Shown here: positions 29,333 to 33,019 of the stretch, one piece after another
How the letters are laid out: each line of letters starts with the position of its first letter
Position numbering within the stretch: the first letter of the stretch is position 1
Assembly: GCA_021816865.1 (NCBI GenBank)
Contig: JAKAWX010000005.1
Span: forward strand, 62,001 to 126,000
Origin: Thermoplasmata archaeon
GTDB taxonomy: Archaea > Thermoplasmatota > Thermoplasmata > Lutacidiplasmatales > UBA184
Length of the DNA stretch: 64,000 nt
Direction: 5' to 3'
Notes under the pieces: model-generated
Told to the model about the DNA's origin: nothing
What the model saw: the letters and a program-made list of their open reading frames with translations, nothing else
Database searches by the model: none
Program-made: the position numbers and the translations under genes

Positions 29333-32029
29333 CTACCGGATCCGCTCGAGGGCGAACGATCCCACGACGAGCGCGCGCTGGGTCGCCCGACACTCGACCC
29401 AGTCGCGGGTCTCGACTTCGCCGAATCCCTTCACCGACAGGTAGAGCCGGTCCCGCTCCTGCCGGAAGACGATCGCTCCGTCCATCCGGCTGAGCAGCGT
29501 CTCGACCGCGGCCTCGGAGAGCGCGCCCCCCTCGAGGGAGTACATCGCGACCGCGGCCCTCGGCTTCAGGATCCCGACGACGTTCTGAAGGAACGAGAAG
29601 CTCGCGCGCTCGTCCCCGTGGGCCAGGACCGCGGAAAGCCCGAGGAACCCGACGCGGAACCGCGGTTTCCTCGACCCCTCGGTCGCGTTCGCGACCTTCA
29701 CGAGGCTCGATAGGATCCCCGGCCGGTCGTCCGAGCTCGCGACGACCGTATGCTGGCTGTCGGACTTCCCGCCGGAGCCCGAGGCATCGATCCAGCGGAC
29801 CATCCCCATCTGCTCGTATTCGCGGAACTGCGGGAGGACGACGCCGAGGCTTTCGGAGACCTCGCTCGGCGAGCGGGCGGCGGTGACGAGAACGATCGGC
29901 TCGCCGCGCTTCAACCCTTCGGCGACGAACGCGTAGAGCACGACCTCCTTCCCGACGAACGCATCGCCGAGGAGGACGATGTGGCCGTGCGGGGGGAGCC
30001 CCCCGAGCAGAAGGTCGTCGAGCCGCGGCGTGCCCGTCGGCAGCCGGTCGGCGAACCGTCGGCCCGCCGGGGCCGTGAGAGTGTCCGGAACGGGGGCCGC
30101 CTCGGAGCTCATGTCCCGGATCGCGCCGGGGGGTTCCGCGCGGGACGAAGCGATTCGGGGGCCCTCCGACCGACGTCCCGGGCGGGACGCGGCCGCCGCC
30201 ACGGTCGCGGTGCCGAGCGGGGCGCGCTCGATCGCCTGGCGGCGGAGGCTGACCTCGGCCTCCATCGCCCGCAGCGCCTCCTCGCGGCTCAGAAGGTCGT
30301 GCTCGCGGCGGTCCAGGCCCTCGGTCGTGGCCCTTTGCCGTCGCTCGCGTTCGGCGAGGGCCGCCTCGCGGTCGGCGAGCGACTTCATGCTCCGGTCGAC
30401 GTCCGCGCTCTTCTTTGCGGTCTCGCTTTGGTGCTCGCCCAACTGGCGCACGCGGGCCTCGTGCTCCCGGACGGCCGACTCGTACTGCGCGCGCCGTTCG
30501 TCCGCGACCTTGAGACGGTCGGAGAGGTCACCCTCCCTCTGCCGGAGCGCCGCCTCGCGACGGGCGAGGTCGGCCTCCTTCTGGCTCGCGACGGTGAGGG
30601 CGTCCTTCGCGACCTTGGCGCGATCCGCGACCTCCCGGGCCCGGCGGCCGAGAACGACGTTCTGCTCGTCGAGCGCGAGCTTGAACTGCTGAAGCTTGAC
30701 CTCCCGGGCGGCGAGCTCTTGGGCGGCCCCCGCGGGGGCCGCGGGCCCGGACGGCGCCGCGAGCTCCCGGGCGGAGACGTCCCCCTCTCGGCGGAGGAGC
30801 TCGGCGGTCTTCTCCTCCACCTGCTTGCGACGCTCCTCGAGCCGAGCCTCACCTTCCGTGAGCGCCGTCGTTCGGCGGTCGACGTCCTGCCCCCGCTGGG
30901 TGAGCTCGACGTCCCGCTGGGTCTGGAGGCCTTCCTGCTGGACGAGCCGCTCCTCGCGAGCCGAAAGCTGGGGGCCGAGGCGCTGGACCTCTAGTTCGCG
31001 GAGCTCGAGCGCCTTCGTCCGGTCGTCGAGGAGGGTCGAGCGTGCGTCCATCTCGGCGATCCGGCCGGCCCACGCCCGCTCCTTTTCGACGAGCGCGTCG
31101 GAGCGCGTCCGGTAGTCCTCCTCGAGCCCGTCGAGCTGCGACCGGGCCTCTGCGAGGGAGTCGCGCTGGCGCCGGATCGAGGTCTCCGTGTTCTCGACGT
31201 CGGCGGCGCGCTTGACGACCGCAGCCTCGCGGAAGTGGAGCGCTTCCTCGCGTTCCCGCAGCTCGTCCGCGAAGCGGAACATCCGGCTCTGGCCCGAGGT
31301 GATCAGTTCGCGCTCGTGCACGCGCGTCCCCGACGAGATGAGGTGAAGGAACGACCCCGAGGTCTGGGTGAAGATCGCCGAGAGGAAGAGGCTCACGACG
31401 AGCGCGTCCGACGTCGCCCGGGAGCTCGCCGGCGGCACGTAGACGATCAGGGCCGTCGCGACCGGAAGGAGGGCCGAAAGGGCGCTCGCGAGCTGCCGAC
31501 CGCTCCAGCCGGACCACGTGAGGACGAACCCGAGCAGCGCGACCGATATCGCCGCGAGCTCGACGGGGTAGAACCAGGGAAAGAGGGCGACGTGGGCGAG
31601 CGGGCCCATCCCCACGATGCGCAGCGCGTACAGCACGGCGAGCAGGACGTTGAGGGCGAGCGCGCCGACCGTGGTCGCGAAGTGCCCTTCCCACGGCCAG
31701 AGCTGGAACGCCTCCCACTTCGACGCGACACCTATCGCCGCGAGGCCGAGACCGGCGAGGAGCGGGAGGAGGAGGTAGAAGGTCCGCTCGACCGCGACCG
31801 TGTAGCGGTCGGAGGCGCCGAGGGTGGGGAGCTGCGGATAGAACAGGAGGATCAGGATCCCGTCGAGCGCGAGCGCCGCGGAGACGAAGACCGTGTAAGC
31901 GTGGGCCGCGCGCCCGATCCTCAGCTGAAGAAGAGCGTCGTTCTTCGCCAGCTCGAGGTCTTCCGGAGCAGGAACGGTCACCTTGCGGGTGGCCGGTGGC
32001 GGCTTGCGGGCCGCCGTCGGCTTAGGCAT
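29333..32029 (-). CDS. multidomain protein: N-terminal 6-TM region, ~350 aa coiled coil, C-terminal KaiC/RAD55-like RecA-fold domain
   Basis: 898 aa; hydrophobic TMs in first ~230 aa; Arg/Glu/Leu/Ala-rich heptad-like region (EREEALHFREAAVVKRAADVENTETS...); C-term LPTGTPRLDDLLLGGLPPHGHIVLLGDAFVGKEVVLYAFVAEGLKRGEPIVLVTAARSPSEV is KaiC-like. Confidence 0.85.
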   Translation of the reverse strand: MPKPTAARKPPPATRKVTVPAPEDLELAKNDALLQLRIGRAAHAYTVFVSAALALDGILILLFYPQLPTLGASDRYTVAVERTFYLLLPLLAGLGLAAIGVASKWEAFQLWPWEGHFATTVGALALNVLLAVLYALRIVGMGPLAHVALFPWFYPVELAAISVALLGFVLTWSGWSGRQLASALSALLPVATALIVYVPPASSRATSDALVVSLFLSAIFTQTSGSFLHLISSGTRVHERELITSGQSRMFRFADELREREEALHFREAAVVKRAADVENTETSIRRQRDSLAEARSQLDGLEEDYRTRSDALVEKERAWAGRIAEMDARSTLLDDRTKALELRELEVQRLGPQLSAREERLVQQEGLQTQRDVELTQRGQDVDRRTTALTEGEARLEERRKQVEEKTAELLRREGDVSARELAAPSGPAAPAGAAQELAAREVKLQQFKLALDEQNVVLGRRAREVADRAKVAKDALTVASQKEADLARREAALRQREGDLSDRLKVADERRAQYESAVREHEARVRQLGEHQSETAKKSADVDRSMKSLADREAALAERERRQRATTEGLDRREHDLLSREEALRAMEAEVSLRRQAIERAPLGTATVAAAASRPGRRSEGPRIASSRAEPPGAIRDMSSEAAPVPDTLTAPAGRRFADRLPTGTPRLDDLLLGGLPPHGHIVLLGDAFVGKEVVLYAFVAEGLKRGEPIVLVTAARSPSEVSESLGVVLPQFREYEQMGMVRWIDASGSGGKSDSQHTVVASSDDRPGILSSLVKVANATEGSRKPRFRVGFLGLSAVLAHGDERASFSFLQNVVGILKPRAAVAMYSLEGGALSEAAVETLLSRMDGAIVFRQERDRLYLSVKGFGEVETRDWVECRATQRALVVGSFALERIR

Positions 32030-32068
32030 TGTAGCTCCCGAAGGGATTCAATGGGGTCCGGGGGTTAC

Positions 32069-33019
32069 TTAATGTTGCGCACGCAAGCGGGTCCGGCGGA
32101 GCGCCACCAGGACGGCCGCGGCCCGATCCCAGCGCTCGGTTCGGCGTCCGACCTCCTCCTCGACCTCGAGGAGGTGCTCCCACGCCTTCGGGTCCCCGTG
32201 CGCCGCCGCGACGCGCTCCGCGTCGGTCCCGAGGACGGGAGCGACGGCCATCGTCTCGACCGCCGACCACCCCGCGGGCCCGAGCCAGCGGTCGAGATCG
32301 AAGGGGCCGGCGCGGAGGAACCCCCCTTCCTCCGCGCGACGTTTCGGCTCTCCGGCGAACCCTTCCCGCTCGATCCGGGGCACGAGCGCGCGCACCGGCG
32401 AGCGGAGGAGGCGACCCACGACGCGCGCCGGAAGGCGCCCGAGGTATCGCGAACGCTCGCCGGATCCGGGAACGACCTCGACGACGAGGGTCCCCTCGGG
32501 CGAGACCAGGGCGGCCGCAGATTCGAGCACGGTCGGGCCTAGGGACCCGGCGAAGCCGACGAGGTTTCCGAGGAGGACGACCTCCCCGAAACGGCCCGGC
32601 GGGAACGGCGCGGAGGCGAGGTCGCCCCGGACTCGATCCGGCCGGGTCAGGGCGGCGATCGAGTCCGCCCAGTGGGCCTCGAGGCGTTCGAGCATCATCG
32701 ACGAGACGTCGAAGGCCACTCGGCGCGAGCGGGGCCCCCCCAGCCGGCCCGTAAACCGGCCGGGCCCGCTCCCCGCGTCGAGGACCCAGGGAGCGTCGAC
32801 CGCGTGCCGGTCGAGGAAGCGTTCGCGCAGGACCCGGAAGAGGTCGCGCTGGGGCGTTCCCTCGTATCTCGTCCACTCGCGCTCGACCCGGTAGGCGTCG
32901 GCCGCGAGGAACCGCGCACGCGCGGTGGGGGCGGGCGACCCGACCGAGGGGACGCCCGGCGGGGACGCTCGGTCCGTCCGCCGGGTGGGGCCGTGGGGGG
33001 TCCTCCTCGACCGGTCCAC
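32069..33019 (-). CDS. SAM-dependent class I methyltransferase
   Basis: PWVLDAGSGPGRFTGRLG (motif I), RVAFDVSSMMLERLE, DLASAPFPPGRFGEVVLLGNLVGF, EGTLVVEVVPG; start taken as GTG 33019 (uncertain). Confidence 0.82.
   Translation of the reverse strand: MDRSRRTPHGPTRRTDRASPPGVPSVGSPAPTARARFLAADAYRVEREWTRYEGTPQRDLFRVLRERFLDRHAVDAPWVLDAGSGPGRFTGRLGGPRSRRVAFDVSSMMLERLEAHWADSIAALTRPDRVRGDLASAPFPPGRFGEVVLLGNLVGFAGSLGPTVLESAAALVSPEGTLVVEVVPGSGERSRYLGRLPARVVGRLLRSPVRALVPRIEREGFAGEPKRRAEEGGFLRAGPFDLDRWLGPAGWSAVETMAVAPVLGTDAERVAAAHGDPKAWEHLLEVEEEVGRRTERWDRAAAVLVALRRTRLRAQH

Follow-up and report, generated by a model that had tools for sequence, protein, structure and literature searches.

Gene and domain architecture

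The window analysed here, a 64,000-nucleotide stretch of DNA, comes from a metagenome-assembled genome (MAG; 83% complete) related to Candidatus Lutacidiplasma and belonging to a group of soil archaea. Its reverse strand carries a complete gene that combines a six-helix membrane domain, a long coiled coil and a KaiC-like domain, with a class I SAM methyltransferase gene directly upstream (Table 1). The codon-position GC content of the larger open reading frame is 75/49/91%. Two long antisense frames, at 29750-30994 and 31235-32542 of the forward strand, overlap this gene and are probably shadow ORFs of a high-GC coding sequence rather than genes.

Table 1. Features of the locus, in coordinates of the window
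Feature	Residues	Position	Strand	Remarks
6-TM, coiled-coil and predicted pseudo-KaiC (GKE-KaiC) gene	1-898	29333..32029	-	complete; ATG start; 898 aa
Six-helix membrane domain	23-233	31331..31963	-	
Coiled coil	235-609	30203..31327	-	
Variable linker	610-660	30050..30202	-	from alignment
KaiC/RAD55-fold domain	661-898	29336..30049	-	
Modified Walker A, GDAFVGKE	688-695	29945..29968	-	
TAARS	716-720	29870..29884	-	stands where KaiC has T-F-E-E-S, which includes the catalytic Glu pair
RVGFLGLSA	792-800	29630..29656	-	replaces Walker B RVVIDSITA
Class I SAM methyltransferase gene		32069..32932	-	upstream of the 898-aa gene, 39-nt gap; start codon approximate

Five to six transmembrane (TM) segments were found in the protein by hydropathy, and the AlphaFold model of the N-terminal region places helices at residues 23-63, 84-108, 115-139, 153-169, 177-197 and 203-233 (pLDDT 92.8 for the membrane domain). 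The Glu-rich stalk of about 375 residues that follows is interrupted by an Ala/Pro/Gly-rich break near residues 425-440. It exhibits a 7-residue hydrophobic periodicity with a power of 0.177, compared to 0.036 in shuffled sequences; none of 500 shuffles scored as high, and at period 3.5 four of 500 did. The first-pass annotation of this DNA, made by a model from the letters alone, had described membrane helices, a long coiled coil and a KaiC-like domain within one ORF and had suggested coiled-coil prediction as a check. Hydropathy, AlphaFold, heptad periodicity and the PF06745 match agree with that description.

Several residues of the membrane domain are invariant or nearly so across the family, namely LQL at 34-36, His43, Lys104-Trp105, His116, Trp172, Gly225 and His229, and the same holds for Thr235 just past the domain. 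If both the N-terminus and the coiled coil face the cytoplasm, these conserved positions would lie together at the cytoplasmic ends of the helices. Searches of the PDB by sequence and by structure gave no relative of the six-helix domain (by structure, no match at E<=0.001), and its assignment to a known transmembrane fold was rejected on these grounds.

KaiC-fold domain and its altered motifs

The C-terminal domain, or tip, matches the KaiC family PF06745 (E=1e-10; 41.8 bits against a cut-off of 26.6). Its AlphaFold model has the KaiC/RAD55 fold (pLDDT 91.8), with PH0284 (2dr3) and KaiC as the best PDB matches and a TM-score of 0.74-0.79 to PH0284. When scanned alone, the tip also matches DUF7504 (PF24336) at 30.5 bits with a cut-off of 27, a match unreported for the full-length protein at E<=1. 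By fold and score the tip is a member of the KaiC superfamily, and it belongs to the broad class of inactivated KaiC domains. The likeness to PH0284 and cyanobacterial KaiC covers the fold and the N-terminal half of the sequence; in contrast to KaiC, the protein has a single KaiC domain, in which the Mg2+ ligand, the Walker B Asp and the catalytic Glu pair are all replaced. In the P-loop GDAFVGKE, the final Glu stands where the Mg2+-coordinating Ser/Thr of the Walker A consensus GxxxxGK[ST] would be. Alignments to KaiC put Leu796 at the Walker B Asp position and Ala718-Arg719 at the catalytic Glu pair. The domain ends with a conserved GSFALERIR.

The first-pass annotation had called the P-loop degenerate and had seen no clear Walker B Asp. 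The missing Asp was borne out, Leu796 lying within RVGFLGLSA, and the loss of the Glu pair had escaped that reading. The P-loop is indeed altered, but not as a peculiarity of this gene: GxxFxGKE is a conserved signature of the whole family. Every one of the 62 family members that have a G4GK motif reads xGKE, and GK itself is altered in three further members (TEKE in two, GRE in one). The canonical KaiCs of the window genome retain GKT. In our searches the GKE signature was confined to Thermoplasmatota, where the wider GKE-KaiC family extends to other classes. Since the P-loop of single-domain members in those classes already reads GKE, GKD or GRE while their Walker B Asp persists within DSLST, sequence comparison suggests that the P-loop was altered first and Walker B later.

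The tip is under purifying selection and is constrained like the rest of the protein. Across four close pairs, dN/dS values of 0.05-0.17 were obtained in the KaiC domain, as against 0.08-0.19 in the membrane domain and 0.09-0.23 in the coil. Because the catalytic motifs are gone throughout the clade while dN/dS is low, the tip is probably a conserved non-hydrolysing pseudo-KaiC, as far as its sequence tells. Even so, slow hydrolysis by such a tip is conceivable, as is a failure to bind anything. It might even be an active, unconventional nucleotide hydrolase or kinase, with GKE and other residues providing a different catalysis and the protein serving as a membrane-bound ATP-driven switch. The near invariance of the P-loop Gly, Lys and following Glu, the strong purifying selection and the DSLST with Walker B Asp in sister single-domain members would suit such an enzyme. 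We nevertheless consider it unlikely, given that the Mg2+ ligand, the Walker B Asp and both catalytic Glu residues are replaced in the clade and that three members have lost GK itself.

Distribution of the fusion

Of 300 genomes sampled from the class, 96 have the membrane domain; they represent 17 of 90 genera. A scan of contigs gave 79 loci, nearly all labelled as Thermoplasmata, Thermoplasmatota or Euryarchaeota MAGs and including Candidatus Lutacidiplasma silvani. The architecture search proposed with the first-pass annotation recovered the fusion of membrane and KaiC domains in 58 of the 64 ORFs uncut by a contig end at these loci on Thermoplasmata contigs. In three of the six remaining ORFs, a probable frameshift has moved the KaiC domain into an adjacent frame. 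The other three truly stop after the coil, at 417, 418 and 565 aa (loci L138, L141 and L131 in genomes G013, G019 and G167, respectively). The KaiC domains that carry the membrane domain group together in the KaiC-domain tree (91/78 support), and this topology fits a single fusion event.

Two circumstances had been named in advance as fatal to the first-pass proposal, namely three separate genes joined by misassembly, and an architecture both common and already characterised. Misassembly was ruled out by the identical fusion in dozens of independent contigs and by a clean empty site in genome G001, which lacks a homologue of the 898-aa gene and where the methyltransferase is followed directly by a glyoxalase-like gene, situated farther off in the window. 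The architecture did prove common in Thermoplasmata, but no characterisation was found in the literature searched. The fusion of six TM helices, coiled coil and KaiC is itself undescribed there, although an earlier survey of archaeal KaiC hubs may list it.

Upstream methyltransferase

Wherever the sequence of a related locus extends far enough upstream (59 loci), the methyltransferase is adjacent and on the same strand, while the next conserved neighbour in the same direction occurs in about 29 of 62 loci. Its motif I is intact, and the enzyme family is found across the GTDB family of the window genome except in G016 (no match). PADLOC gave no match for the 898-aa protein and only weak ones for its neighbours, based on coiled-coil or methyltransferase similarity, and a defence system was rejected.

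CheR methylates Glu/Gln residues in the coiled coils of methyl-accepting chemotaxis proteins, and a chemoreceptor-like sensor could be organised in the same manner, with the membrane domain sensing a signal and the adjacent methyltransferase modifying the stalk. The strict adjacency, the conserved His, Lys and Trp of the membrane domain and the Glu-rich stalk are compatible with this arrangement. However, the enzyme belongs to Methyltransf_25/11 and not to CheR; it is kept in genomes that lost the membrane gene, is non-adjacent in genera g19-g21, and was not found in eight other class genomes tested, from families that have the membrane protein. The linkage may therefore be positional and is no proof of partnership; the case for the methyltransferase as an obligate partner is weakened, and a chemoreceptor-like role appears improbable.

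Co-occurrence with a soluble paralog and Roadblock

A soluble GKE-KaiC coiled-coil paralog was searched for in 57 genomes of the GTDB family, and the result was combined with the presence of the membrane type by manual tabulation. Forty genomes have both, two have the membrane type only (G083 and G204, soluble paralog undetected), five the soluble type only and ten neither (Fisher p~4e-6, a value that ignores the tree and draws on MAGs of uneven completeness). Among the ten are the three genomes whose membrane protein stops after the coil. Four of the five soluble-only genomes belong to genus g17; all four lack the membrane protein and have two soluble copies. In these g17 genomes (G048, G068, G143, G224; L219) the two copies form a tandem pair in at least three cases, which gives the impression that the second stands in for the membrane one. 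One soluble paralog is located at G000:C3:35351-36094. The N-terminus is a helix-hairpin-helix in the soluble paralogs at L026, L027 and L032 and a zinc ribbon in others, which hints at binding of DNA or protein.

Roadblock/LC7 proteins (PF03259), one of them encoded at G000:C8:56522-56737, follow the same pattern. They were detected in 46 of 48 GKE-KaiC-positive genomes, the window genome included, versus one of ten negative genomes, G016 having Roadblock without GKE-KaiC. The loss genomes require three changes in the tree of the neighbouring methyltransferase, at least two of them forced by well-supported branches. There is moderate support for treating tip, soluble paralog and Roadblock as a single phyletic module, with co-loss events being few and the MAGs incomplete. 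Joint retention or loss of these three components suggests an uncharacterised membrane module for signalling or positioning.

The protein might instead be a passive structural filament or envelope scaffold, with the KaiC tip a mere oligomerisation remnant and nucleotide, paralog and Roadblock irrelevant to its function. In line with this, three genomes lack the KaiC domain but retain the membrane domain and some of the coil, which indicates that the membrane part works or persists alone. On the other side, the KaiC domain is constrained as strongly as the remainder of the protein, and it tends to be present where the soluble paralog and Roadblock are; we consider a passive role unlikely.

Proximity to type IV pilus genes

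KaiC and Roadblock proteins near archaeal type IV pilus loci have been noted earlier (PMC4858521). In our analysis, with T2SSE and T2SSF families assigned by Pfam, seven of the 14 class genomes checked have a T2SSE ATPase no more than 8 kb from the soluble paralog, where about 3% would be expected per genome. In sister lineages of Thermoplasmatota (L222-L231), all ten loci exhibit a string of Roadblock/LC7, a KaiC-Ras-like GTPase fusion and a stand-alone GKE-KaiC. REC lies opposite in five of these loci, and T2SSE together with T2SSF is found within the available stretch in four. By analogy, this string may represent an MglA/MglB-like module, standing beside the pilus motor where T2SSE/T2SSF adjoin.

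At the loci read, T2SSE/T2SSF genes do not neighbour the gene for the membrane-anchored protein itself, and genomes from which the entire module has been lost still have pilus ATPases; the pilus link thus rests on relatives of the gene. No T2SSE/T2SSF gene, the type IV pilus ATPase included, was found in the window genome; relatives carry such genes at other loci. Since 59 of the 61 genomes searched in the GTDB family have the ATPase, this gap is probably due to the incompleteness of the assembly.

Comparison with known systems

The closest functional parallel is offered by the archaellum motor, in which FlaH (ArlH) is a KaiC-like protein that binds ATP without hydrolysis and docks on partners, and FlaX (ArlX) is a membrane-anchored ring-forming holder (PMC6011876). 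In both cases a KaiC/RecA fold, non-hydrolysing in FlaH and a predicted pseudo-KaiC here, is held by a membrane protein or domain, and relatives of the 898-aa protein sit by T2SSE/T2SSF genes. Unlike in FlaH and FlaX, both functions would here share one chain with six TM helices. Moreover, nucleotide binding by FlaH requires the Walker A Lys and the Walker B Asp (PMC6011876), and the latter is absent from the tip. The FlaH profile NF004723 (NCBIfam) gives E=0.16 and 11.5-14.9 bits, far from its cut-off of 194. Judged by these parallels, the protein would work most like a fusion of FlaX and FlaH, yet it is not a FlaH member. A role as an archaellum component was rejected, archaellum genes being reported absent from Lutacidiplasmatales (PMC9287336).

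Inactivated KaiC-like (iKaiC) domains, including MEDS, DUF835 and DUF7504, have lost their catalytic residues and are fused to archaeal signalling modules (PMC5847659). The tip resembles them as a KaiC fold with catalytic residues lost and differs in its fusion to a 6-TM domain and a long coiled coil, a combination undescribed in the literature searched.

MglA and MglB form polarity modules of a Ras-like GTPase and a Roadblock protein, which the Roadblock and KaiC-Ras string of the sister lineages presumably resembles. The likeness lies in GKE-KaiC genes that accompany Roadblock and a KaiC-Ras GTPase fusion, several adjoining type IV pilus motor genes; as a difference, no Ras-like GTPase was found beside the Roadblock gene in the GTDB family of the window genome.

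Proposed role

Taken together, we favour a membrane scaffold of a pseudo-KaiC/Roadblock module, with the type IV pilus motor as the best current candidate for its client, and assign this reading a probability of roughly 55%. The six TM helices would hold the protein in the membrane and the coiled-coil stalk would extend into the cytoplasm, by up to ~55 nm at full stretch (375 residues at 0.15 nm each). The KaiC-fold tip may serve as a non-hydrolysing assembly or sensing domain, as FlaH/ArlH does in the archaellum motor, and most likely acts with the soluble GKE-KaiC coiled-coil paralog and Roadblock/LC7. The resulting membrane-tethered accessory module would position or regulate its client. 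Membrane topology, pseudo-enzyme behaviour, direct partnership and client are in each case what we infer. The original proposal, a signalling or scaffold protein anchored in the membrane whose ATPase activity may be altered or lost, agrees with all findings, with "degenerate" an understatement. A bolder version, in which the new six-helix-anchored pseudo-KaiC, its soluble counterpart and Roadblock form a previously unrecognised non-hydrolysing scaffold from membrane to cytoplasm that, in analogy to MglA/MglB, determines where an envelope machine such as the type IV pilus sits or how active it is, is offered tentatively and with considerably less confidence.

KaiC-like proteins have been proposed as signalling hubs of archaea, with their connection to the membrane and their partners mostly obscure. 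The GxxFxGKE signature provides a simple marker for the family described here, and the conserved, membrane-tethered putative pseudo-KaiC, its phyletically linked soluble paralog and Roadblock define a concrete three-protein interaction to test. In uncultured Thermoplasmatota, these proteins are candidates for a system that controls polarity or pili.
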